64,000 bases of DNA from Terrimonas ferruginea DSM 30193 (GTDB lineage: Bacteria > Bacteroidota > Bacteroidia > Chitinophagales > Chitinophagaceae): assembly GCF_000425585.1 (NCBI RefSeq), contig NZ_AUDS01000014.1, forward strand, positions 1 to 64,000, in the 5' to 3' direction. Both the position numbers and the translations under genes were made by a program. Below, one piece after another: positions 9,732 through 39,259 of the stretch. The notes beneath the pieces were generated by a model that was given only the letters and a program-made list of their open reading frames with translations, had not been told where the DNA came from and made no database searches. Each line of letters begins with the position of its first letter. Position 1 is the first letter of the stretch.

Positions 9732-10340
9732 TCAGGACACCACCCAGGCCAGCACGAGGTGATCGAAATGACGGTAATACAGATCAAGTGAAGTATTGTT
9801 CTTGGTAAAAAGACAACGCACTCTGCCCGCATCGGCATCTCGTTCCAGTAGACGGATATGCGCTTTGAAATCCACTTCTCCGTCACCATACCATTTATAC
9901 ACAGCTTCCTTGATGCTCCAGATCGTCGTGAGTCCGCGCACACCCGGTTCACTACCGAATACGGCTCGCTCTTCCGGCGTGGTAAATTTGGAAGCGATGC
10001 GTTCGATGCGCGCCACGGGAATTTCGGCATCCACGCCCGTGCGCAGATCGCGGCTTACCAATGCCGCCGCATAGTCACCGCAATGAGAAATGGAAAAATG
10101 ATACTGCGCATCCGGTAAAAAAGGTTTGCGTGTATCGGCGATGCGGATGAGTTCGTAAGGAAAATCCGGATAAAGATATCGCAGCAGGAAACGCCCCGCC
10201 AGGTGCTGCAAACGCTTATGGGGGTGCGTTACATCGCGGTGTTGCGGAACATTATCCTTAAAAAATTCCTCCGTTTCTTCGATCTTCCATACACCGAGGC
10301 GGGTGGAAGGGTTGATTTGTTGTTGAAAAAAAATCGGCAT
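9732..10340 (-). CDS. 4'-phosphopantetheinyl transferase (Sfp type)
   Basis: 202 aa. Transfers phosphopantetheine from CoA to a carrier-protein serine. Signatures: FSISHCGDYAAALVS, then GVDAE (normally GVDIE, Mg-binding acidic residues kept) followed by IASKFTTPEE, and WSIKEAVYKWYG (the WxxKEAxxK motif). An upstream extension to 10655 would run antisense through dcd and is rejected; the ATG at 10340 fits the family start. It could activate the ACP of the exopolysaccharide locus at 22.2 kb as well as the fatty-acid ACP; that link is inference. Confidence 0.88.
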   Translation of the reverse strand: MPIFFQQQINPSTRLGVWKIEETEEFFKDNVPQHRDVTHPHKRLQHLAGRFLLRYLYPDFPYELIRIADTRKPFLPDAQYHFSISHCGDYAAALVSRDLRTGVDAEIPVARIERIASKFTTPEERAVFGSEPGVRGLTTIWSIKEAVYKWYGDGEVDFKAHIRLLERDADAGRVRCLFTKNNTSLDLYYRHFDHLVLAWVVS

Positions 10341-10394
10341 TCGTGCTGGTTTCTCCTTTATTTTGCCGGTTAAAGATAGAGTAAAACTACGGCT

Positions 10395-10931
10395 ATGATC
10401 CTCTCCGATAAACGTATCCTCGAAGAAATTGAAAAAGGCACCATCAAACTGGCGCCTTACGACCGCGAATGCCTCGGCAGCAACTCTTACGATGTGCACC
10501 TGGGCAAATGGCTGGCTACGTACAAAGAACATATCCTCGACTCCAAAAAACATAACGAGATTGAATACTTCGAAATTCCGGAGGAAGGTTTCGTATTGTA
10601 TCCCCATATTTTTTATCTCGGTGTTACACTCGAATACACCGAAACACATGCGCATGTGCCGTTCCTGGAAGGGAAATCATCTACCGGCCGTCTCGGCATC
10701 GACATTCATGCTACTGCCGGTAAAGGCGACGTAGGTTTTTGCGGGCACTGGACGCTCGAGATCTCGGTCAAACAACCTGTGAAAGTGTATAAGGGAATGC
10801 CGGTTGGCCAGCTTATTTATTTCCCAGTGGAGGGTGAGATTGAAGTACGCTACGATCAGAAGAAAAATGCCAAATATTCCGGTCAGCCCGATAAGCCGAT
10901 CGAGAGTATGATGTGGAAGAACAAGTTCTGA
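10395..10931 (+). CDS. dcd: dCTP deaminase
   Basis: 178 aa. Converts dCTP to dUTP in thymidylate synthesis. Family features in order: MILSDKRILEEIEKG, GSNSYDVHLG, EGKSSTGRLGI (the conserved substrate-binding KSSxxR block) and HWTLEISVKQPVKVYKGMPVGQLIYF, containing the catalytic Glu of the TLE motif. Length is normal. Convergent with the DUF3810 gene; its TGA stop opens an 8-bp repeat array. Confidence 0.93.
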   Translation: MILSDKRILEEIEKGTIKLAPYDRECLGSNSYDVHLGKWLATYKEHILDSKKHNEIEYFEIPEEGFVLYPHIFYLGVTLEYTETHAHVPFLEGKSSTGRLGIDIHATAGKGDVGFCGHWTLEISVKQPVKVYKGMPVGQLIYFPVEGEIEVRYDQKKNAKYSGQPDKPIESMMWKNKF

Positions 10932-18839: not shown

Positions 18840-19379
18840 ATGGTTTCGCAAGATGGTAAACAATGGTTCGCACTTTATACCCGCCCACGCTGGGAGAAAA
18901 AAGTGACCGAACTGCTGGACAGAAAAAAAATTCAAGTTTACTGCCCGCTTAATAAAGTACAGCGTCAATGGTCTGATCGCAAGAAGATCGTTCATGAGCC
19001 ATTGTTCAGCTCCTACGTTTTTGTTTGCCTTTCTCCTGAAGAACAAACAAAAGCGTTGCAAACCGACGGCGTGATCAATTTTGTGTACTGGCTGCACAAG
19101 CCGGCGGTGATCCGCAACGACGAGATCGACGCTATCCGCCGTTTCCTCAACGAATACGAGAATGTTTCACTGGAGAAATGTCCGGTAAACATGAACGACA
19201 CTGTCCGCATTCTCAACGGTCCGTTGATGACATGGGAAGGACAGGTGGTGGAAGTGCGCGCCAATACAATCAAAGTAATGTTGCCTTCGCTGGGGCAATG
19301 CCTCGTGGCCGAGTTCCGCAAAGAGAATGTAGAGAAAGTGATCCATCCGGTATCGGCCTATCACATGAAAGCCGTTTAA
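18840..19379 (+). CDS. UpxY/RfaH-like transcription antiterminator (NusG family)
   Basis: 179 aa. NGN domain at the N-terminus (KQWFALYTRPRWEKKVTELL, FSSYVFVCL) and a C-terminal KOW segment (VRILNGPLMTWEGQVVEV). In Bacteroidota such UpxY proteins open capsule operons and let RNA polymerase read through the long downstream genes. Its position right before the sugar-module genes fits that role. An extra PAVIRNDEIDAIRRFLNEY linker is typical of the family. Confidence 0.9.
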   Translation: MVSQDGKQWFALYTRPRWEKKVTELLDRKKIQVYCPLNKVQRQWSDRKKIVHEPLFSSYVFVCLSPEEQTKALQTDGVINFVYWLHKPAVIRNDEIDAIRRFLNEYENVSLEKCPVNMNDTVRILNGPLMTWEGQVVEVRANTIKVMLPSLGQCLVAEFRKENVEKVIHPVSAYHMKAV

Positions 19380-19388
19380 TTCAGCATT

Positions 19389-19790
19389 ATGCCATTGAGT
19401 GAAGTGAAGCTCCTGGAGCTTCCGAAAATTCTGGACCCGCGCGGCAATCTGTCATTTCTCCAAAACAATGATCAGTTACCTTTCGCTGTACAACGCGTGT
19501 ATTGGATTTATGATGTTCCGGGCGGTGATTTTCGCGGTGGTCACGCTTATCGTTCTTTGCAGGAAGTGATCATTTCCCTTTCCGGCAGTTTTGATGTGGT
19601 GCTGAGTGACGGCTATGAAGAAAAAAAAATCACATTGAACCGCTCCTATTACGGCTTGTATGTGCCAAAGATGATCTGGCGTCAATTGGAAAATTTTTCG
19701 ACCAATGCGCTTGCCTTTATCGCGGCCGACCAGCCTTACAGCGAACAAGATTACATACGCGATTTCGAAGCCTTCAAGCAAACTGTATGA
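19389..19790 (+). CDS. FdtA/QdtA-like sugar 3,4-ketoisomerase (WxcM-type cupin) 1
   Basis: 133 aa. Cupin of the FdtA family that isomerises dTDP-4-keto-6-deoxyglucose to the 3-keto sugar. Family blocks: DPRGNLSFLQN, VYWIYDVPGGDFRGGHAY (His of the active site), LQEVIISLSGSFDVVL and GLYVPKMIW. 9 bp after the UpxY-like gene and overlapping the second ketoisomerase by 4 bp (ATGA). Confidence 0.9.
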   Translation: MPLSEVKLLELPKILDPRGNLSFLQNNDQLPFAVQRVYWIYDVPGGDFRGGHAYRSLQEVIISLSGSFDVVLSDGYEEKKITLNRSYYGLYVPKMIWRQLENFSTNALAFIAADQPYSEQDYIRDFEAFKQTV

Positions 19791-20206
19791 GTCAGCCATC
19801 CGTATTCGATTGCAGCGTTATTTATTTACCCCGCATTCATAACCGCTCAGGCAACATCACTCCTATTCACAACAGCCGCGAAATCCCTTTCGACGTGAGA
19901 AGGATTTTTTACCTGTATGATATTCCGGGCGGTGAATCACGCGGTGCTCATGCACACCGCCGCTGCCACCAGTTCCTGGTAGCCGTGAGCGGTTGCTTCG
20001 AAGTATTGCTCGACGATGGACATACCCAACGCCTGGTGATGCTCAACCGCCCTTATATGGGCCTGCACATTCCCCCGGGCATGTGGGCATCCGAAGTAAA
20101 TTTTTCTTCCGGTTCCGTTTGCCTCGTACTGGCTTCCGAACTTTATGACGAGCATGATTACATCCGCAACTATGACGATTTCAAAAGCTTCAGGACTCCC
20201 GCCTGA
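19787..20206 (+). CDS. FdtA/QdtA-like sugar 3,4-ketoisomerase (WxcM-type cupin) 2
   Basis: 139 aa paralogue of the preceding gene with the blocks HNRSGNITPIHN, IFYLYDIPGGESRGAHAHRR and GLHIPPGMW. The His pair in GAHAHRR is the usual FdtA active-site motif, better kept than in copy 1 (GGHAYR). The two copies may act as a hetero-oligomer or give different products (galacto or gluco configuration). Confidence 0.9.
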   Translation: MSQPSVFDCSVIYLPRIHNRSGNITPIHNSREIPFDVRRIFYLYDIPGGESRGAHAHRRCHQFLVAVSGCFEVLLDDGHTQRLVMLNRPYMGLHIPPGMWASEVNFSSGSVCLVLASELYDEHDYIRNYDDFKSFRTPA

Positions 20207-20735
20207 AATTACCGGTCGCAAAACAATATTGAAAGAAGTAACACCGGAGGACGCGGAAAACATTTGCCGCCTGCGCAATGATCCGCAGATCAACCGTTAC
20301 CTCTCGAGCTCCGAGGCCGTTTCAGTGGAACAACAAACCAACTGGATCATCGCCAACAAGGCTCGCAACGACGGCTATTATTTCAAAATCCTCGATAGCG
20401 ATCATCATTTCTGCGGCACCGCTTCCATTTATAATGTGCAGAATGGCGAAGCCGACTTTGGCCGTTACGTTTGCACACAACCTGTTCAGGCAGTGGAAAC
20501 GGAATACCTGCTGATGGAGTACGCATTCAACAGCATGCAGTTGAATAAACTGTTTTGCCGAACGGCGGAAGACAACCGTCGCGTATGGCGGCAGCATGTA
20601 ACGCTTGGTTTCCGCGAAACCGGCCAGGAAATATTACCGGGAAAAGAGCTGCTGATCAAAGTACAGGAACTTACCCGCGATGCATTTTTGCAGCATGACT
20701 ATTCATTTTTACAACGGTTGATCGACCGTTTCTAG
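20172..20735 (+). CDS. GNAT family N-acyltransferase of the amino-sugar module
   Basis: 187 aa from the ATG at 20172, overlapping the ketoisomerase by 35 bp; an in-frame ATG at 20145 is also possible. RimJ/RimL-like GNAT fold: TILKEVTPEDAENICRLRND, then GRYVCTQPVQAVETEYLLMEYAF (acyl-CoA/ACP loop) and NKLFCRTAEDNRRVWRQHVTLGF. Probably acylates the 3-amino group of the sugar made by the aminotransferase at 22481. The donor may be acyl-CoA or the ACP encoded at 22248. Confidence 0.82.
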   Translation: MTISKASGLPPEITGRKTILKEVTPEDAENICRLRNDPQINRYLSSSEAVSVEQQTNWIIANKARNDGYYFKILDSDHHFCGTASIYNVQNGEADFGRYVCTQPVQAVETEYLLMEYAFNSMQLNKLFCRTAEDNRRVWRQHVTLGFRETGQEILPGKELLIKVQELTRDAFLQHDYSFLQRLIDRF

Positions 20736-20743
20736 TTTTGTTA

Positions 20744-22297
20744 ATGACACTTTATTTTATTTCAGATACGGTTACCACTCCTATAACCCGGGAACTTAAA
20801 AAGACATTGCCGGAACTTTCCGTGGAAGAACGTTATGAAGAAGACCTGATCCCGGCATTAATGCAATGGCCCGAAAAGCCTGCTGATGCGGTCTATTTCA
20901 TTCACTCCGATCAGTACTTCCGGCACAAACCCGCTGCCTGGCAAATGCAGTTCTTACAGACGGTTCATGCATTTGCGGCAAGGCAAACCGGCCCTGTTCT
21001 TTTATCCAATCAACTCGACGACAGTTTCGAACCACGTGCATGGGCCGGCTACGCAGGAAGACAAACCAGCATGGCAGACCGTTATCGCCCGCAACTGGAA
21101 GCATGCCTTTCATTACCCAACTTATTTGTGTTTGACCTCGCGGAACTGGTGCTGAATATCGGTGCGGCACAATTTTACCAATACAATCTCGGGCATCTTT
21201 ACCAGATGCCTTACACCAAACCGGCGGTGAAAGCCATCGCCGGTGAATTGCAACAACAATTGCAATGGCTGCAGGCGGAAGAGAAAAAAGTAATCGTGCT
21301 GGACTGCGACAATACACTCTGGAAAGGCATCGTGGGTGAAGATGGGGTTGAAGGGATCATCTGTGACAACAACGCCGATGGGATCACTTATTATCACTTC
21401 CAGCAATTCCTCAAAAACCGGATCGAAGAAGGGTTCCTGCTTTGCCTCTGTTCAAAAAACAACGAGGCTGATGTGGAAGCGGCTTTCCGCAAACGCCGCA
21501 TGCCCCTGCAATGGGAAGATTTTATCGTAAAAAAAATAAACTGGCAGGACAAGTATACGCAGTTGCAATCCATCGCGCAGGAACTGAATGTGGGCATCAA
21601 CTCACTGATCTTTATCGACGACAATCTCTTTGAACTGAATGCCACCAGCGCCATGCTGCCGGGACTGACTACTTTGCATTTCACCGGTGACTACAAAGAT
21701 TTCCTGCACCTCACGCGTTCCTTCCATTTCAGAAAAAGAAATATTTTAAAAGAAGACCGCCAGCGTACGGAACTCTATCGTACGGAACAGGACCGCAACC
21801 GCCTGCTGGGTGAAACCGGTGACATGAATGCGTTCATTGATGCGCTGGGAATTGAAATGGAGATCGGCGTCAACGATCCGAAAGATCTGGAACGTTTGTC
21901 ACAACTCACCGGCAAAACGAATCAATTCAATTTTAATAAACAGGCTTATACCACCCGCGAACTCGAAGAGATGATTGAAAGGGGCTGGAAATTATTCTCC
22001 CTGCGTGTAAGCGACAAGTTCGGGGATTATGGCCTGGTAGGATTGATTATAACAAGACCGGTGGTAGAAAATCATCTCATCGAAAACTTCCTGATGAGTT
22101 GTCGCGCTTTGGGCAAACGCATCGAAGAAAAATTCTTTCACGAAGTATTCTTGCAACTACAAAACCAGGGCACTGCGCCAGGCCAATTCATTTTTACGCC
22201 GACCGAACGCAATCAACCTGCCCAAAATTTTATAACCATACTGACAAATGACTATCAGCTTAGCACAATTGCAGGAAATATTCCAGAGCGCCTTTAA
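20744..22297 (+). CDS. FkbH-like HAD-IIIC protein
   Basis: 517 aa from the ATG at 20744 (a TTG two codons earlier is less likely). N-terminal region about 1-180, then a HAD domain with VIVLDCDNTLWKGIVGEDGV (DxDxT, Asp near 187), LCLCSKNNEADV and SLIFIDDNLFE, and a C-terminal GNAT-like domain (DKFGDYGLVGLII, SCRALGKRIEEKF). FkbH proteins load a glyceryl group from 1,3-bisphosphoglycerate onto an ACP; the adjacent ACP gene fits this. In this locus the acyl group would go to a sugar. Confidence 0.9.
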   Translation: MTLYFISDTVTTPITRELKKTLPELSVEERYEEDLIPALMQWPEKPADAVYFIHSDQYFRHKPAAWQMQFLQTVHAFAARQTGPVLLSNQLDDSFEPRAWAGYAGRQTSMADRYRPQLEACLSLPNLFVFDLAELVLNIGAAQFYQYNLGHLYQMPYTKPAVKAIAGELQQQLQWLQAEEKKVIVLDCDNTLWKGIVGEDGVEGIICDNNADGITYYHFQQFLKNRIEEGFLLCLCSKNNEADVEAAFRKRRMPLQWEDFIVKKINWQDKYTQLQSIAQELNVGINSLIFIDDNLFELNATSAMLPGLTTLHFTGDYKDFLHLTRSFHFRKRNILKEDRQRTELYRTEQDRNRLLGETGDMNAFIDALGIEMEIGVNDPKDLERLSQLTGKTNQFNFNKQAYTTRELEEMIERGWKLFSLRVSDKFGDYGLVGLIITRPVVENHLIENFLMSCRALGKRIEEKFFHEVFLQLQNQGTAPGQFIFTPTERNQPAQNFITILTNDYQLSTIAGNIPERL

Positions 22298-22475
22298 CGA
22301 AGACATAGACCTGCTGCCCACCAGCAGCAAAGACACACTCGAGGCCTGGGATTCGATCAACCACCTGCAACTGATCGTAGAACTCGAAGACCGTCTCGGC
22401 GTTTCTTTTACGAAGGAAGAAATAGAACAGCTCGACTCCGTACCGAAGCTGACAGCCATGCTTGCCGCAAAATAA
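22248..22475 (+). CDS. acyl carrier protein of the FkbH module
   Basis: 75 aa. Carrier protein with [15 protein letters not shown]: Ser in DSI is the phosphopantetheine site. It overlaps the FkbH gene by 50 bp, which implies tight coupling. The divergence from a fatty-acid ACP (no DSLD block) suggests a specialised partner for FkbH and the GNAT. Confidence 0.92.
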
Positions 22476-22480
22476 GCCCC

Positions 22481-23581
22481 ATGATCAAATTCCTGGATCT
22501 TCAGAAAATCACTGCCTCCTACCATTCGGAGATACAGGATGCCGTGAACAGAGTGGTCAGCTCCGGCTGGTACCTGCTGGGCAATGAAGTAAAAACTTTT
22601 GAAGAGCAATATGCGGCGTATTGCGGTTCGTCGCATTGCATTGCCGTAGCCAATGGGCTGGACGCCTTGAGTCTTATCCTTCGCGCCTATAAGGAAATGG
22701 GCGTATTGCAGGACGGCGATGAAGTGATCGTTCCGGCCAACACTTATATTGCATCGCTGCTGGCCGTCACGGTCAATCATCTCAAGCCCGTACTCGCCGA
22801 GCCTGAAATGATCACTTATAACCTTGATGTAAAAGAGGTTGAAAAACTGATCACCCCACGTACACGCGCCGTAATGGTAGTGCATTTGTATGGTCAATGT
22901 GGTTATTCAAACGAACTCAGGGAACTCTGCCGCAAGCGCGGGTTGAAACTGATCGAAGACAATGCGCAGGCGCAGGGAGCTTTTTATCACACTAAAAGAA
23001 CCGGCAATCTCGGTGATGCGGCCGGTACAAGTTTTTATCCGGGAAAAAATTTAGGCGCCCTTGGTGACGCAGGCGCTGTTACGACCAACGACGCTATTTT
23101 GGCAGAAACAGTAAGAACCCTGGCCAATTACGGCTCAAAAGTCAAATATATCAACGAATACGCCGGGCAAAACAGCCGGTTGGATGAAATACAGGCAGCC
23201 GTTCTCAAAGTGAAGCTGGCTTATCTCGACTCCGACAATGCCAAACGCCGCCAGATCGCGCACCGTTATCTTACCGGCATACATAATCCGCGTATCGTGT
23301 TGCCTGCTGTGCAAACGGAAGAAGGACATGTGTGGCATCTGTTCGTGATCCGCACCGCCGAACGCGAGCGCCTGCAACAGTTCTTACAGGAAAAAGGCAT
23401 TCAGACATTGATCCATTATCCTGTACCGCCACATAAACAAGCGGCTTATAGCGAGCGCAACGAGGAAGAATACCTGCTCACCGAACAGCTACACCGAGAG
23501 GTATTGAGCCTGCCCATCAGTCCCGTGCTCACCCTGACCGAAGCGGATACGATCATAGAGGCGATCAACGAATTCAGGTGA
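22481..23581 (+). CDS. DegT/DnrJ/EryC1 PLP-dependent sugar aminotransferase (FdtB/QdtB-like)
   Basis: 366 aa. Transaminates a 3-keto-6-deoxyhexose nucleotide. Blocks: [63 protein letters not shown] (PLP Lys near 188) and [19 protein letters not shown]. With the two ketoisomerases it gives dTDP-3-amino-3,6-dideoxyhexose. The TGA stop is the start of a heptad array. Confidence 0.92.
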
Positions 23582-23802: not shown

Positions 23803-25092
23803 ATGCTGACCCGCATAAAAAAAATAATCGCAACCGACCTGGTAAAAGTCACCTCGCTGAATGCAGTGGCAACACTCGTGCGGATGCTCACGGGTTTCAT
23901 CAGCGTGAAGGTGGTGGCAGTACTGATCGGTCCCGCAGGTGTTGCCTTGCTGGGCCAACTGACCAACTTCACTACTATCCTACTGAATATTTCAACGGGT
24001 GGTATTGGTCCGGGCATGACAAGATATGTGGCGCAGTACAGTGAATCACCGAAAAGATATGCAGTGTTCCTGTCTGCCGGATTGCGCATCATTCTCACTT
24101 TATCGATTATCTCGGGAATCGTGCTGCTCGTAGCCGGACGTTTCTTTTCCATACAAATATTAAAAGATGCCGGCTATGCATTTGTGTTTCGTATACTGGG
24201 TGGCACGCTGATCCTTTATGCGCTCAATACTTACCTGGTGGCGATCATCAACGGATTCCGTGAGTTCCGCAAATATGCTTTGGCCAACATGGCCGGCAGC
24301 GTTACCGGATTATTGTTTTCCGTAGTACTCGCTTATAATTTCGGACTGACGGGCGCGCTGATCGGTGCCGTTACTTACCAGTCGGTCGTATTCCTGGTAA
24401 CGTTGAGTATGGTAACGCGTTCATCCTGGTTCAGCAGACGCGCGTTTGGGCTGCCATTCAGCCGTCAGGCAGGCACCCGTCTCGGACACTATGCAATAAT
24501 GACGCTGGTCAGTGCAATCACGGTTCCGGCCAGCCAGTTACTGGTAAGATCTTACATCAATCACAGCACCGGATCCATGGACGCAGCAGGTTTGTGGGAA
24601 GGTATGAACCGGATATCCGCGATGTACCTGATGGTCATCACAACCTCGCTCAGTGTTTACTACCTGCCGAAACTGGCACGCCTGAAAACACGCGCTGAGG
24701 TAAAGACGGAAATTTTCCAGATTTACAAATTGGTACTCCCCTTCCTTTTGATATTATCGGCCGGCATCTATTTGTTCCGCGGATTAATCATCGAATGGCT
24801 GTTTGATACCTCATTCGCCGATATGCGATCTTTGTTCCTGTTTCAGCTTATTGGTGACTTTTTCAAGATCGCGAGCTGGATACTGGCGTACCAACTGATT
24901 GCGCGTGCCATGACAAGAACATTCATTTTCACAGAGATATTCTTCAACGGTTCATTCGTGTTATTGTCGATGTTATTTGTACCGATGTACGGTCCCCTGG
25001 GGGCAACGATTGGTTATGCGGTAAACTTCTTTTTATACCTGATCACGATGGTGCTCATCTTCCGTAAAACACTTTTCGCCCATGCATCCTGA
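23803..25092 (+). CDS. O-antigen/exopolysaccharide flippase (Wzx)
   Basis: 429 aa with about 12 hydrophobic segments (polysaccharide transporter/MATE-like fold). Start MLTRIKKIIATDLVKVTSLN followed by FISVKVVAVLIGPAGVALLGQ, the pattern of WzxE-like translocases. Flips the undecaprenyl-linked repeat unit across the inner membrane. Overlaps the next glycosyltransferase gene by 11 bp. Confidence 0.9.
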   Translation: MLTRIKKIIATDLVKVTSLNAVATLVRMLTGFISVKVVAVLIGPAGVALLGQLTNFTTILLNISTGGIGPGMTRYVAQYSESPKRYAVFLSAGLRIILTLSIISGIVLLVAGRFFSIQILKDAGYAFVFRILGGTLILYALNTYLVAIINGFREFRKYALANMAGSVTGLLFSVVLAYNFGLTGALIGAVTYQSVVFLVTLSMVTRSSWFSRRAFGLPFSRQAGTRLGHYAIMTLVSAITVPASQLLVRSYINHSTGSMDAAGLWEGMNRISAMYLMVITTSLSVYYLPKLARLKTRAEVKTEIFQIYKLVLPFLLILSAGIYLFRGLIIEWLFDTSFADMRSLFLFQLIGDFFKIASWILAYQLIARAMTRTFIFTEIFFNGSFVLLSMLFVPMYGPLGATIGYAVNFFLYLITMVLIFRKTLFAHAS

Positions 25093-31542: not shown

Positions 31543-33447
31543 ATGCGTTTCACCAGCGGATTATCATCCCGTCACGAACAAGCCGGCCGGCCGGCCGATG
31601 TGTTGCTTGCCACCATCGGACGTATGCCGGTCGCGGTTTTCTTTGCTTTCCTGTTTCTTTATCAGCTTGCCTTTATCTTCCAGGGCCTCGACTTTGCTGA
31701 TGAAGGATTTCATGCCACTTTTTACCAGGAAATTTTTCATGATCCTTCTTCCGTCCAGTACAATTTCATGTATTGGTTTTCCGGCATTATCGGCGGACTC
31801 TGGATGAAAGCCTTTGGCTTCCTGGGTTTGTGGGGACTGCGCTTAGCCGGCGTATTAGCCACTACATTGACCGCTTACCAGACTTTCCGGTTTTTACGTC
31901 AATACATCAATAAAGGCCATTTGTTCATTGGACTGATGCTGGCAACGATGTTTATCAGCAACGATCCCAAGGAACTTTATTATAACAATCTTTCCGCACT
32001 TTTTTACGTACTCATCGCCACGGCTTTTTTTAAAGGCCTTCGCTATCACAAGCCTTTGTTGTTGCTGGTTGCCGGTGTGCTGGTTGCTATCAATACGTTT
32101 ACCCGCTTACCCAACCTCCTGCAATCCGGATTGATCCTTGCGGTATTCTATCACGGCTACATTGCGCATGTCCCGATGCGTACACGCATACAACAAGCAC
32201 TGTTGTTTGCAGCGGGACTCGCCGGCGGACTGCTGCTGATCTGGTTCATCATGTACAGTGTTGGCCACTGGCAACTGTTTATGAATAATTTCAATCTGCT
32301 GGTAAACCTTGCAGGTACTGCTACCGGCACCACAGAAGGACAGGCAAAAGACAGTGGCGGTTATTACAGCCTCGGCGCGCAACTGAGCTTGTTCTGGGGC
32401 AACTACATGATTTCGCTGCGTTATACGGCCTATCTGCTCGCTTTCCTGCTGACAGCAGGGTACGTTACCGGACAGGCACGCCGTTACAGTTGGATCAGGC
32501 GTCTATTGCCCTTTGCAGGATGGCTTTGCTTTTTTGCTTTGTGCATAGCAGTCGTGAGCGTCACGAAAAATGTAAATCTTCCGAATACTTTATTGCTTTA
32601 TTTGTTCTCCGGTAGCGCCATCCTCATCGGCGGATATACGCTGTTGCGCGGACGCAATGTGGATATCCGCCTGCTGGCATTCTTTGGTTTGTTTCAGACA
32701 TTGAGTTATCACGTGGGCAGCAGTTCCGGTATGTTCACCGCAGGTGTATATGCGTTCTGGATCACGTTGCCTTTGATCGTCGACTGGATTTATCGTTTGC
32801 GATCGGTTCAGCTAAGCGGACAAATGCAATCCATACGCGGGGAAGAAGAGGAAGCGAATATCTGGATCTCGCCGCGGCAACTTCGTCACTTCCGTCAATA
32901 CGGACTGGTCATCTGCCTGCTCGGCTGTGTTTATTCTTCCTGGAATCATCCGTTCTGGGATTGGGCGGGAAGAGATAAACTGACACATAGCATCAACAGT
33001 GAAAAAATGCGCGGCATCTTTACTTCCGGTCCCAGAGCCGAAGCCATTAACGAATTACTCGAAGCATCCAAACACTATATCAAGCCGGGCGATTTTCTGC
33101 TGGCACACGATGCCATTCCGATGGTTCACTATTTAACGGGTACGCGTCCATTTCTCCACAACTCTTACCCCTGGCTTTACCAGGCAAATGTTTACAAGGC
33201 CCTGCTGGAGCAAAGCACGGAGGAAAAAGATCATTTACCGGTAATCGTTATGCAAAAAGTAGCCGCCAATAGCCACCGCGGAATACATTGGCCGGAAAAC
33301 AGTGCGCCGGAATATGAACAGTGGAATAGTGTGCGCAATAATATTCTGCAGCAATACCTCACACGTTATCATTATAAAGAAGTATGGTCGAATAATGCTT
33401 TCCGTTTATTCGTATCCGAAACACCTGTTTCTGTTTTTCATCCATGA
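31543..33447 (+). CDS. multi-pass membrane protein, GT-C/ArnT-PMT-like glycosyltransferase
   Basis: 634 aa with about 10-12 hydrophobic segments and a soluble C-terminal domain (about 480-634). The early periplasmic loop DFADEGFHATFYQEIF (an acidic DE pair after TM1) resembles GT-C enzymes (PMT/ArnT), which use polyprenyl-phosphate sugars on the outer face of the inner membrane. I infer a glycosyltransferase or modifying role in the locus; specificity unknown. Confidence 0.65.
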   Translation: MRFTSGLSSRHEQAGRPADVLLATIGRMPVAVFFAFLFLYQLAFIFQGLDFADEGFHATFYQEIFHDPSSVQYNFMYWFSGIIGGLWMKAFGFLGLWGLRLAGVLATTLTAYQTFRFLRQYINKGHLFIGLMLATMFISNDPKELYYNNLSALFYVLIATAFFKGLRYHKPLLLLVAGVLVAINTFTRLPNLLQSGLILAVFYHGYIAHVPMRTRIQQALLFAAGLAGGLLLIWFIMYSVGHWQLFMNNFNLLVNLAGTATGTTEGQAKDSGGYYSLGAQLSLFWGNYMISLRYTAYLLAFLLTAGYVTGQARRYSWIRRLLPFAGWLCFFALCIAVVSVTKNVNLPNTLLLYLFSGSAILIGGYTLLRGRNVDIRLLAFFGLFQTLSYHVGSSSGMFTAGVYAFWITLPLIVDWIYRLRSVQLSGQMQSIRGEEEEANIWISPRQLRHFRQYGLVICLLGCVYSSWNHPFWDWAGRDKLTHSINSEKMRGIFTSGPRAEAINELLEASKHYIKPGDFLLAHDAIPMVHYLTGTRPFLHNSYPWLYQANVYKALLEQSTEEKDHLPVIVMQKVAANSHRGIHWPENSAPEYEQWNSVRNNILQQYLTRYHYKEVWSNNAFRLFVSETPVSVFHP

Positions 33448-34247
33448 GATTATTTTTCATCATAGTTGTATTTATTCCGTTCATGGCGGCGGGTTGCCGT
33501 CATCCGGCAAAAGACACGCTGCCTCCCGGCGCCGATACGGTTATATTCAGCGAAGGCAATCGCCAGCACCTGCTGTTTTCTTCAGGATTTGAAGACAGCA
33601 ATTATCTCAGCGGCTGGCAAAATCAACAGCATTGCTGTGATTATTCTGTTACGGCTGCACCCAGGAGCCGCGCCGGTAACCAGGCCGTACGTTTCGAGTT
33701 GAAAAGAAATGATCCGTCGGTTTCAGGAAGTGTTCGCTCGGAGATCAACCTCGAAGCAGAACTGAGCACCTACGCGGAACGCTGGTATGGCATCAGTTTT
33801 TACCTGGAAGATTACGAGGCCGACAATGGCAGTGAAAGCATCATTCAATGGCATCATACCGCCCATATCAGCAGCGGCAGTCCGCCATTGGCACTTTGGG
33901 TAAATAACGGCAAGTTGTTATTGGTACACCAGGAAAGAGAAGGCGCCAACACGTACGAAGAACTGGGAGCCGCCACCACGGGTCGCTGGATCGATGTGGT
34001 CTTTCATGTAAAGTGGACCGACCAGGCCGACGGTTTTATCCAGGTTTGGAAAAATGGCAGCCTCGCTTTTAATAAATATGGTATCCGCACCAATTTCAGT
34101 CCCAATTACGTGAAGCTCGGTATCAACAAATGGTCCTGGGCGCCGGGGGGAGGACAATCAACAAGCACGCACCGGGTGTTGTATGCCGATGAGTTTCGTG
34201 TGGGCAATGAAAAAGCGCGTTACGAAGACGTACAACCCGGTCCCTGA
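33444..34247 (+). CDS. polysaccharide lyase-like lipoprotein (heparin lyase I fold)
   Basis: 267 aa. Lipobox MAAGC (Cys18). Mature part has a concanavalin-like jelly-roll pattern of the polysaccharide-lyase family (RSEINLEAELSTYAERWYGISFYL, IIQWHH, LLLVHQERE, WIDVVFHVKW, DGFIQVWKNG). Overlaps the GT-C gene by 4 bp. A lyase inside a synthesis locus usually trims or clears polymer, and this suggests a uronic-acid-containing product. Confidence 0.78.
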   Translation: MRLFFIIVVFIPFMAAGCRHPAKDTLPPGADTVIFSEGNRQHLLFSSGFEDSNYLSGWQNQQHCCDYSVTAAPRSRAGNQAVRFELKRNDPSVSGSVRSEINLEAELSTYAERWYGISFYLEDYEADNGSESIIQWHHTAHISSGSPPLALWVNNGKLLLVHQEREGANTYEELGAATTGRWIDVVFHVKWTDQADGFIQVWKNGSLAFNKYGIRTNFSPNYVKLGINKWSWAPGGGQSTSTHRVLYADEFRVGNEKARYEDVQPGP

Positions 34248-36251: not shown

Positions 36252-37316
36252 GTGGCTGATACGTTTGAACATATTCTTTTTGTAGGCCCGGATCACCGGA
36301 ATCACCGCGGCGGCATAGGCGCCGTGCTGGCGGTGTATGCCAAACATATCAGACCTTTCAAGTTTATCCCTACGCTTTCTTACCGGCATAAATTGATCGA
36401 AGCCTTCTTTTTTATCGGCGCGCTGTTCCGCCTGACCACCACCCTTCTCAGCGACAGAAAGATCCGCATCGTTCACGTACACGGTGCAAAAGACGGCAGC
36501 ATCTTCAGAAAAGCATTTGTCGTTTTTATCAGTAAAAAATTATTCGGCAAGAAACTGGTTTTTCATATTCATGCCGGCGCCTTTGATGAGCGATATACCG
36601 GGGGAAGTGCTGTTTACCGGACACTTTGCCGTTTTGTCGTCAACCAAAGCGATCAGCTCGTTTTGCTTTCAGCGCAATGGAATGATTTCTTTTATAAAAA
36701 TTTCCGTTTAAAAGGAATCCGGGTGATCCCCAATCCCGTAGAACAAAAAGCAGCGCAACCGCCCACCGCGGGCCCGATGATCCGTTTTCTTTTTCTCGGG
36801 CGCATTGCCGATCACAAAGGCATCTTCGATCTGCTGCGGCTGATTCATGCAGAACAGGATCAATGGAAAAATAAATGCCATTTCTCCGTAGGAGGCAATC
36901 ACGAGATCGAACGTTTGCAAAACACGATCCGTGAAAACGGTACGGGCCAACTGGTTGAATTCATAGGATGGGTGGACGGTCAGGACAAAGAACAACAATT
37001 TAATAATTGTCATTACTTCATTCTGCCTACTTATGAGGAGGCCATGCCGATGACATTGCTGGAAGCATTCAGTTACGGCAGGGCTGCACTGACCACTCCG
37101 GTGGGCAGCATTCCCGAGATCATGCAAAACGGTTGTGAAGGCTGGCTCTTCCAACCCGGCGATACCGACACACTCCGCGGACTGATCAACCAGGCGCTGG
37201 ACAACCCGGAGCAGGCTGTTCAACTCGGTAACAATGCCCTGCAAAGTGCCAGCCGCTTTTATCCCGAAGCCATCCGTCATCATTTAGAAGAATTATACCG
37301 CTCCTTAGAAAAATGA
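36252..37316 (+). CDS. GT4 family glycosyltransferase
   Basis: 354 aa starting at GTG 36252. GT-B signatures: HVHGAKDGSIFRKA, VIPNPVE, FLFLGRIADHKGIFDLLRLI and EEAMPMTLLEAFSYGRAALT. No in-frame ATG gives a better start. Overlaps the following gene by 4 bp (ATGA). Confidence 0.87.
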   Translation: MADTFEHILFVGPDHRNHRGGIGAVLAVYAKHIRPFKFIPTLSYRHKLIEAFFFIGALFRLTTTLLSDRKIRIVHVHGAKDGSIFRKAFVVFISKKLFGKKLVFHIHAGAFDERYTGGSAVYRTLCRFVVNQSDQLVLLSAQWNDFFYKNFRLKGIRVIPNPVEQKAAQPPTAGPMIRFLFLGRIADHKGIFDLLRLIHAEQDQWKNKCHFSVGGNHEIERLQNTIRENGTGQLVEFIGWVDGQDKEQQFNNCHYFILPTYEEAMPMTLLEAFSYGRAALTTPVGSIPEIMQNGCEGWLFQPGDTDTLRGLINQALDNPEQAVQLGNNALQSASRFYPEAIRHHLEELYRSLEK

Positions 37317-39259
37317 TCCCTACCCGCGTTAAATGGTATTATTATCGTCTGCAGACCATGCAACCTGCCGAGTGGGCGTTTCGTGGCAAACAATGGCTGC
37401 GCAAACAAAAAGAAAAACGCAAACCGGTCAATCCTGTTTTTACCAATGTGACGGTGCGTCCTTTCGATTTTAGTTTCCCCTATGAAAAAATGCAGGTTGG
37501 CGGACCTTATACGGTGTTCGGCAAAGAACTCGATCCGTCGGCCATTCAGGATTTTCATCTCGATATTTTCTCCGGGAAAAGATTTCCGCAAAATGATTTC
37601 TCAAAAAATATAGATATCCGGACAGACCGCCACGGCAGCGCTAAGGTAGTGTGGGAAGTTAACCGCCTGCATTACCTGCTGCCGTTATTGATCCGTTACC
37701 GCCAGGAAAATAATCCTGCCCATCTCGGCCTTTTTATGCGCCTGATGCGCAATTGGCAGGAACAAAATCCTTATCTGCGTGGCATCAACTGGTATTCCAA
37801 TATCGAAGTGTGCCTGCGGTTGATCAACTGGTACTGGTGCTGGAACATCCTGGAATCGGATGAGCATTGGCAACAGGATGAACAATGCCAGGCCTTCAGG
37901 CAGCAAACCTGGTTACCGCTGATCTATCAGCATTGCTATTATGCATCACGCAATCCGTCCCTGTATTCTTCCGCGAACAATCACCTGGTGGCCGAATACG
38001 CCGGGCTGTGGATAGCTACATTGAAATGGCAATTCCCCGAATCTGCCGGATGGAACAGTTACGCCAAAGCCGGACTGGAACGTGAGATACTTTTACAATA
38101 TTCTCCCGCGGGCATCCACCGCGAAGAAGCATCGGTGTATATCCAGTTTGCTACCGATTTCTTTTTGCAATCGATGATCGCAGGACAACATTACGGTTCA
38201 CCTTTCTCCGCTGCCTTTGAAGAGCGTTTGCAAGCGGCTTTCCATTATATCGCCCAACTGATGGACATCCGTCAGCAGGTACCGCATTATGGCGACGAAG
38301 ACGATGGCCGCGTGATCCTTCCCGACAACGATCACCGCAGTAACAATTTCGTTTCGCTGCTGAACACAGCCGCCCTCTTATGGAATAATGCAGACTGGAA
38401 AATGTCGGTTACTGCCGATACAAAAACGGCACTGCTAACGGCACATCTTGACGAAACGGCCTTACCAATAGCAGCAAAAAAATACCATTCCGTTTGTTTC
38501 CGCGAAGACGGCCATGCTATTCTGCGTAAAACCGACAGCACGCAGCAGCAGGAAATTTATTGTCATTTCGATGCAGCCCCTTTGGGTTATTTATCCATTG
38601 CAGCGCATGGGCATGCCGATGCCTTGTCCGTGGTGTTGCACATCGATGGTTATCCGTTCCTCACAGATCCGGGAACTTTTGCCTATCACACGCATCCGGA
38701 ACACCGGAAATATTTTACGAGTACTCTTGCCCACAATACGATCACGATCGACCAAACTGATCAGGCCATATTAGCCGGACCAACATTGTGGCTCCAGCAT
38801 TACAAGGCTCAAATCGAACAATGCACGCTCAGTGAAACGACCGATATTGTTACCGGTTCACACAACGGTTACCGGCAGAAACAAATCATGCACAGCCGTA
38901 CTGTGCGTTTCTACAAGACAACTGACCAACTCATTTTATCAGATACCATACAGGGGGAGAAAGCAGGTTATCATATTGCCATGCCTTTTCACCTGCACCC
39001 CGACATCCAGGTGAAGCAGACTGCAGCTAATTGTTACCGGTTGTCGCATCCTGCTATCAAACGGGTGGTGGATATTCAAATGGATCGTATGCTGGAAGTA
39101 CATCGTATGCAGGCTAATGAGCAGGGACCGCAAGGCTGGTACTCGCCTTCATTCATGCAAAAACAACCCTCCTCTTTTTTGCTGGGTGAATGTACTTCAG
39201 AAAAAAAATCACTGGTGTTAACCACCACTCTTACTATAATCACACTTCATGAACATTAG
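37313..39259 (+). CDS. heparinase II/III family protein (alginate/heparinoid lyase-like)
   Basis: 648 aa. N-terminal (alpha/alpha) toroid (NWYSNIEVCLRLINWYW, SANNHLVAEYAGLW, HREEASVYIQFATDFFLQ) and C-terminal Hepar_II_III beta-sandwich (YCHFDAAPLGYLSIAAHGHA, DALSVVLHIDGYPFLTDPGT, TSTLAHNTITIDQ). His and Tyr residues of the family are present. No obvious signal peptide, which is common for those in synthesis loci. Second lyase-like protein of the locus. Confidence 0.86.
   Translation: MIPTRVKWYYYRLQTMQPAEWAFRGKQWLRKQKEKRKPVNPVFTNVTVRPFDFSFPYEKMQVGGPYTVFGKELDPSAIQDFHLDIFSGKRFPQNDFSKNIDIRTDRHGSAKVVWEVNRLHYLLPLLIRYRQENNPAHLGLFMRLMRNWQEQNPYLRGINWYSNIEVCLRLINWYWCWNILESDEHWQQDEQCQAFRQQTWLPLIYQHCYYASRNPSLYSSANNHLVAEYAGLWIATLKWQFPESAGWNSYAKAGLEREILLQYSPAGIHREEASVYIQFATDFFLQSMIAGQHYGSPFSAAFEERLQAAFHYIAQLMDIRQQVPHYGDEDDGRVILPDNDHRSNNFVSLLNTAALLWNNADWKMSVTADTKTALLTAHLDETALPIAAKKYHSVCFREDGHAILRKTDSTQQQEIYCHFDAAPLGYLSIAAHGHADALSVVLHIDGYPFLTDPGTFAYHTHPEHRKYFTSTLAHNTITIDQTDQAILAGPTLWLQHYKAQIEQCTLSETTDIVTGSHNGYRQKQIMHSRTVRFYKTTDQLILSDTIQGEKAGYHIAMPFHLHPDIQVKQTAANCYRLSHPAIKRVVDIQMDRMLEVHRMQANEQGPQGWYSPSFMQKQPSSFLLGECTSEKKSLVLTTTLTIITLHEH

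Follow-up and report, generated by a model that had tools for sequence, protein, structure and literature searches.

Sugar nucleotides with an amino group at C3 are made by the FdtA/FdtB and QdtA/QdtB pathways, which lead to dTDP-Fuc3N and dTDP-Qui3N (solved members 2PA7 and 3FRK; WlaRA, 5TPV). The closest described acyltransferase is FdhC (PDB 5KTA/5KTC), a dTDP-3-amino-3,6-dideoxygalactose N-(3-hydroxybutanoyl)transferase of the GNAT fold, which works beside FdtA and DegT proteins and places a hydroxyacyl group on a 3-amino-3,6-dideoxy sugar. In another field, FkbH-like proteins form glyceryl-ACP (ACP, acyl carrier protein) from 1,3-bisphosphoglycerate in tetronate and methoxymalonyl pathways, as described for the tetromadurin pairs Mad7/Mad8 and Mad14/Mad12 (PMC7489565). 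Here we describe a gene run in a stretch of 64,000 nucleotides from Terrimonas ferruginea DSM 30193 (contig NZ_AUDS01000014.1, positions 1 to 64,000; hereafter the window), where an FkbH protein and a free-standing ACP stand inside a sugar module of the FdtA/DegT type, and where FkbH, ACP and a GNAT probably install a glyceroyl group on the 3-amino-3,6-dideoxyhexose. We know of no part played by FkbH and ACP in the FdhC system. The individual parts of the window cassette are of known kinds, while neither their combination nor a role for it in N-acylation of a polysaccharide was found in the open-access literature searched. FdtA and DegT match their families strongly, but the window differs from the FdtA/FdtB and QdtA/QdtB pathways in carrying FdtA twice and in drawing its acyl group, as proposed here, from an ACP cassette and not from acetyl-CoA (CoA, coenzyme A). 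Compared with tetromadurin, where glyceroyl ends up in a polyketide as part of its tetronate or methoxymalonyl unit (PMC7489565), the neighbours in the window are sugar-nucleotide and polysaccharide genes.

The run occupies positions 19389-23581 of the plus strand in the order FdtA1-FdtA2-GNAT-FkbH-ACP-DegT, is tightly packed, and all six genes were recognised by curated models (Table 1). By open reading frame (ORF) coordinates FdtA1 and FdtA2 overlap by 4 nt, and FdtA2 overlaps the GNAT by 35 nt given the GNAT start at 20172. The ATG of FkbH (20744) follows the GNAT after 8 nt, FkbH and ACP overlap by 50 nt, and 5 nt separate ACP from DegT. The order and the often overlapping ends are thus as the sequence-only reading had given them. 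The GNAT start at 20172 is Met10 of the longest ORF, and residues 1-16 of that longest form fall below 50 in predicted local distance difference test (pLDDT) in the predicted structure. The cassette would build a dTDP-3-acylamido-3,6-dideoxyhexose for a surface polysaccharide. From the families and the homology to solved FdtA/QdtB-type enzymes, FdtA, chiefly FdtA2, would convert dTDP-4-keto-6-deoxyglucose into its 3-keto isomer, which DegT would aminate at C3. As FkbH-like proteins suggest, FkbH would use 1,3-bisphosphoglycerate to charge its dedicated ACP, in phosphopantetheinylated form, with D-glyceroyl, and the FdhC-like GNAT would transfer the acyl group from ACP, not from CoA, to the 3-amino group, to which co-linkage and a shortened loop point. 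The Wzx/Wzy machinery would then use the acylated sugar. Of this scheme, we infer the identity of the acyl group, the ACP as donor and the order of the steps.

The same set of genes recurs in distant bacteria. Two FkbH sequences were scanned against 84,980 species genomes and gave 58 loci. A GNAT matching the hidden Markov model (HMM) for this type lay within 4 kb of FkbH in seven of them (L044, L045, L046, L048, L067, L074 and L100), and four carried FdtA, GNAT, VOC, FkbH, ACP and DegT (L045, Saprospiraceae; L046, Bacteroidetes; L048, Flavobacteriales; L100, Vibrio sinaloensis). L044 held DegT, GNAT, VOC, FkbH and ACP without FdtA, and L100 adjoins rmlB/A/D/C-like genes, named by eye from reading frames. 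When the GNAT profile was used for searching, matches were obtained in 43 of 395 same-phylum genomes, the window's own included. FkbH was present in the fetched stretch at 4 of 19 such same-phylum places (L132, L133, L135, L138), and the two best matches outside the own genome, L132 and L133, were both among these. In the Vibrio sinaloensis family 13 of 247 genomes had GNAT matches, and 12 loci were fetched besides L100. One of them, L177, carries FdtA, FkbH, ACP, a GNAT fused to VOC, and DegT; five (L178, L180, L181, L182, L183) have FdtA-GNAT-DegT without FkbH; among the remainder four are of PseH/NeuB type and L184 is cut by the contig end. FdtA, GNAT, FkbH, ACP and DegT are therefore found together in six further loci (L045, L046, L048, L100, L133, L177), namely three contigs of Bacteroidota metagenome-assembled genomes, one same-phylum genome (L133) and two members of the Vibrio sinaloensis family. 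In L133 the order is FdtA, DegT-FkbH fusion, ACP, GNAT and VOC, and the fusion is a single ORF of 1,034 residues with PF01041 at residues 85-433 (394 bits) and TIGR01686 at residues 679-994 (209 bits). We take the DegT-FkbH and GNAT-VOC fusions as the strongest evidence for what would be one shared pathway. The tie between FkbH-ACP, the 3-amino-sugar module and the GNAT, proposed earlier from the window alone, gained from this co-linkage, from the fusions, and from FdhC being the closest solved fold. Single-sequence searches in the sample of 395 genomes gave only the window's own genome, for FkbH at E<=1e-80 and for the GNAT at E<=1e-12. In plasmid records the GNAT matched 10 records, none covering 80%, and FkbH matched 114; of two inspected, one was unannotated and one lay near pseB and a NeuB-family gene.

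The predicted structure of the GNAT (pLDDT 84.9) had 5KTC as its best PDB match (template modelling scores 0.76/0.79), which is FdhC with CoA and 3-[(R)-3-hydroxybutanoylamino]-3,6-dideoxygalactose, and the sequences are similar as well (phmmer E 2.3e-10). By its fold, closest to FdhC, and by its location with FdtA and DegT the protein is of FdhC type, but the loop in the CoA-pyrophosphate region spans 12 residues versus 15 in FdhC; because of this shorter loop it is labelled FdhC-like, not FdhC. It stayed below the PseH acetyltransferase model TIGR03585 (56.8 bits, cut-off 93.1). In canonical GNATs this loop region accommodates the pyrophosphate of CoA. Its length was taken, in a single alignment of 40 GNAT rows, as the distance from the "FGRY/WGSW" glycine to the conserved glutamate. 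This distance was 12-13 residues in eight FkbH-linked GNATs of the window type (window, L044, L045, L046, L048, L100, L133, L177) and 15 in FdhC and in FdtA-linked GNATs without FkbH (L134, L178, L180-L183), with 18 in another of these, L137. The window GNAT clusters with those of L044, L045, L046 and L048, all FkbH-linked, with support of 96/95 and 99/97 in two trees. The shortened loop weakly suggests, across few evolutionary events, a donor without the CoA pyrophosphate, as an ACP would allow.

Several observations weigh against transfer of glyceroyl from ACP by this GNAT. Firstly, the loop is an imperfect marker. FdhC itself has no G-x-G/A motif and yet binds CoA, and loss of this motif alone was rejected as a sign of ACP use; the GNAT of L100 retains a G-S-A triplet; those of L133 and L177 retain one basic residue each, and complete loss of basic residues was accordingly rejected as a feature of the short loop. 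PseH 4XPK, which uses CoA, spans 13 residues by the same measure, and FkbH-linked GNATs of L132, L135, L138 and L067 have longer loops of 15-18. The trait changes only twice on the GNAT tree and so gives no independent test (independent-pairs test of loop against FkbH linkage: 3 pairs, p 1). This tree comprised 22 of the 40 rows, the 18 left out being canonical acetyltransferases, PseH/NeuB-type, long or partial sequences, with L067, five genes from FkbH, among them. Secondly, the window is without the VOC protein which is present in all six other FdtA loci. Thirdly, L080 (SAR86) has FdtA and DegT and, 4.5 kb on, a VOC-FkbH-ACP set, with no GNAT match and a hexapeptide-type acyltransferase-like frame (by eye) preceding FdtA, so that its sugar and FkbH-ACP modules may be separate. 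Finally, the GNAT of L132 passes the PseH model (107.3 bits, the cut-off being as above) and may be an acetyltransferase. The window GNAT could accordingly be an ordinary CoA-dependent enzyme making a 3-acetamido or 3-hydroxybutanoyl sugar, with the glyceroyl of FkbH-ACP going to another acceptor, a sugar or a hydroxyl. FdhC, its nearest solved relative, uses CoA, L080 and L132 are as just described, and elsewhere FkbH-ACP adjoins MBOAT O-acyltransferases, in 12 of 80 loci. We nevertheless consider this rather unlikely. A family scan covered 20 proteins of the window locus, four glycosyltransferase-like frames lying outside it, and gave no second acyltransferase: MBOAT, Acyl_transf_3 and ATP-grasp had no match among the proteins scanned. 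The same type of GNAT accompanies FkbH-ACP in the six further FdtA loci, in one of them with DegT and FkbH fused, and within the Vibrio sinaloensis family the FdhC-length loop is seen in five FdtA-GNAT-DegT loci that lack FkbH but in neither of the two that have it.

FkbH occurs once in the genome. Its residues D187 and D189 (HAD DxD) and C453 (SCR cysteine, presumably catalytic) are kept in all 79 ungapped rows of an 80-row alignment, and its predicted structure (pLDDT 83.0) matched best 3SLR, a Bacteroides fragilis phosphatase-domain protein (E 1.2e-21). The C-terminal GNAT-like part pointed out in the sequence-only reading is present, but it lies within the span of TIGR01686 itself (residues 183-502), is ordinary for the family, and was rejected as a special feature. 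In the ACP, W34, D35 and S36 are invariant across six aligned ACPs. The Sfp-type transferase at 9732, suggested earlier as primer of the ACP, is real and could possibly act so, but it is encoded on the opposite strand some 10 kb upstream, is not operon-linked, and the genome has a second phosphopantetheinyl transferase match at C6:69503; as a necessary primer it was rejected. FkbH is best known from polyketide clusters (PMC7489565), and the pair might be a passenger, or what is left of a degraded natural-product pathway, with no connection to the sugar. With reading frames overlapping the sugar genes, intact catalytic residues, and a set that recurs, also as fusions, we regard this as highly improbable.

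Membership of the FkbH family suggests glyceroyl as the acyl group, and unmodified D-glyceroyl would be the simplest product, since the MaoC, SDR and ketosynthase families had no match among the 20 proteins. FkbH-ACP and the GNAT could instead cooperate with another acyl group, lactoyl or some other hydroxyacyl, made either by way of glyceroyl-ACP or with a different acyl phosphate as the source. Fuc3N bearing N-lactyl has been described (PMC9912281), and other FkbH-ACP loci carry MaoC (24 of 80) or SDR (14 of 80) proteins, through which glyceroyl-ACP could be converted to lactoyl-ACP by dehydration and reduction. For the window, without MaoC or SDR and with the simplest version of the cassette that was found, this seems quite improbable. 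The chemistry from glyceroyl- to lactoyl-ACP is proposed by analogy with bryostatin loading. The VOC proteins of the relatives score 29.6-81.4 bits (L177, 50.1) under the methylmalonyl-CoA epimerase cut-off of 115; our guess is that they are epimerases acting on C2 of glyceroyl-ACP, and the window, in whose genome a VOC search run without positive control gave no match, would then make the D form.

N-glyceroyl sugars are described from several bacteria. The O-antigen of Pragia fontium carries D-glyceroyl on Qui2NAc4N (PMC10609480), and Tannerella forsythia makes Pse5Am7Gra, 7-N-glyceroyl-pseudaminic acid (PMC9912281). The latter is, like the product proposed here, an N-glyceroyl amide on a surface sugar in Bacteroidota, but the sugar has nine carbons. 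In Neisseria, glyceramido sugars are made by PglB2, an ATP grasp/phosphoglycosyltransferase (PMC11130364); the end product would again be an N-glyceroyl amino sugar, but the enzyme is of another class, with no ATP-grasp match among the 20 scanned proteins of the window locus. Methyltransferase-like genes stand beside the cassette in L045, L046, L048, L100 and L132. Together with glyceroyl they could give O-methylglyceroyl, for which the di-O-methylglyceric derivative of pseudaminic acid in Campylobacter jejuni (PMC3958885) may be compared.

The contexts of FkbH were tabulated for 80 loci, the window and L024 (same contig as L044) being excluded. Same-strand genes within 4 kb were counted, which misses the FdtA of L080 at 4.9 kb; family labels came from HMMs built from these loci and from seed searches, not from curated models; and L132, L133, L135 and L138 entered the table through the similarity of their GNATs, which makes GNAT linkage in these four a result of the selection. 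A NeuB-family gene was near FkbH in 5 of 80 loci (L067, L054, L074, L086, L132), suggesting use of acyl-ACP on nonulosonic acids. L132, of the same phylum, has PseB-like (by eye), PseC (489 bits), PseG-like (by eye), methyltransferase-like, GNAT, VOC, FkbH, ACP and PseI (506 bits) genes, an order which predicts 7-N-glyceroyl-pseudaminic acid there. The MBOAT loci were L028, L030, L032, L035-L037, L039, L049, L057, L066, L091 and L135, with ACP mostly between or beside the two genes and, in L049, also a second frame like an SGNH partner. This layout resembles that of Dlt, with its ACP, MBOAT and extra partner, except that FkbH stands where Dlt has its loading enzyme. VOC was near FkbH in 17 of 80 loci, MaoC in the 24 given above and both in only one, counts uncorrected for relatedness; the two possibly mark two product branches, glyceroyl-type and lactoyl-type. 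In the Vibrio sinaloensis family, L179 has FdtA-GNAT-KSIII-ACP-(MaoC/SDR-like)-DegT without FkbH, its GNAT loop being of FdhC length with no basic residue, perhaps another ACP-fed route of N-acylation. Tentatively, and with less confidence than for the window itself, FkbH-ACP may be a portable supply of acyl-ACP for surface glycans at large. FdhC- or PseH-like GNATs with epimerase-like VOC proteins and methyltransferases would then yield N-glyceroyl groups, perhaps O-methylated or C2-epimerised, including 7-N-glyceroyl-pseudaminic acid; MaoC and SDR would yield lactoyl amides; MBOAT would yield O-esters in a Dlt-like manner; and short-loop GNATs would be ACP-dependent sugar N-acyltransferases.

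The two FdtA copies of the run are the only ones in the genome. FdtA2 combines the PF05523 match with both active-site histidines of the HAH motif. FdtA1 matches the family, but the second histidine is replaced by Tyr. Four tandem FdtA pairs were seen, and in each of them HAY or HAF stands in the first copy, where the second copy, like solved FdtA, has HAH. The first copy is a conserved diverged paralogue and may serve as a non-catalytic or differently specific partner. Since L134 has a tandem pair without FkbH, we treat this as a trait separate from FkbH.

The window locus is a surface-polysaccharide locus of the Wza/Wzc/Wzx/Wzy type with a dTDP-3-amino-3,6-dideoxyhexose module. By curated models, Wza-, Wzc- and UpxY-type genes lie upstream of the run, and Wzx, a Wzy_C protein, glycosyltransferases, an AsnB-like protein, a UDP-sugar dehydrogenase and a phosphoglycosyltransferase lie downstream. 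RmlB, needed for the substrate, had its best match in the genome on another contig (C1:419664, 457 bits, cut-off 365.1). A Polysacc_lyase (PF14099) and a heparinase II/III-like protein (PF07940) are encoded within the biosynthetic locus at 33444-34247 and 37313-39259.

Table 1. Features of the gene run and its surroundings; positions refer to the window unless a locus is named.
Feature	Position	Strand	Evidence
Sfp-type 4'-phosphopantetheinyl transferase, domain near 9771-10037	9732..10655	-	PF01648 46.9 bits (48.8 bits in another scan)
UpxY-type transcription antiterminator, head of run	18840..19379	+	NF033644 140 bits, cut-off 100
FdtA1, sugar 3,4-ketoisomerase family, HAY where solved FdtA has HAH	19389..19790	+	PF05523 161 bits, cut-off 23; alignment with 2PA7/5TPU
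FdtA2, sugar 3,4-ketoisomerase, HAH intact	19787..20206	+	PF05523 176 bits, cut-off 23; 5TPU 3.3e-33, 2PA7 2.6e-32
FdhC-like GNAT, putative sugar N-acyltransferase, loop shortened in CoA-pyrophosphate region	20172..20735 (ORF opens 20145)	+	PF13302 59 bits, cut-off 25.4; Foldseek 5KTC E 7.6e-13
FkbH-type acyl-ACP-forming protein (N-terminal, HAD and C-terminal GNAT-like domains)	20744..22297	+	TIGR01686 247.1 bits, cut-off 146.65
Acyl carrier protein, WDS phosphopantetheine serine Ser36	22248..22475	+	PF00550 24.1 bits, cut-off 20.8 (weak pass)
DegT-type sugar aminotransferase (FdtB/QdtB type)	22481..23581	+	PF01041 343 bits, cut-off 19.8; nearest solved structures 7N63 3.2e-130, 5U1Z 9.1e-123, QdtB 3FRK 2.1e-105
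Wzx-type flippase after run	23803..25092	+	PF01943 46 bits; NF011679 249.9 bits, below cut-off 325
Diverged first FdtA copies of tandem pairs	window 19389-19790; L046:8258-8656; L048:272-667; L134:4176-4592		HAY/HAF

N-glyceroyl and N-lactyl amino sugars occur in bacterial surface glycans, and for T. forsythia the genes of the glyceroyl step were reported as not identified in 2018-2019 (PMC6120980, PMC6388019). The cassette described here names candidate enzymes and a candidate donor, 1,3-bisphosphoglycerate via ACP, for such glyceroyl capping. If the proposed route is true, a route that has so far been associated with polyketides would connect central glycolysis to the structure of surface antigens, and genome annotation could serve to predict which acyl group many polysaccharides carry.

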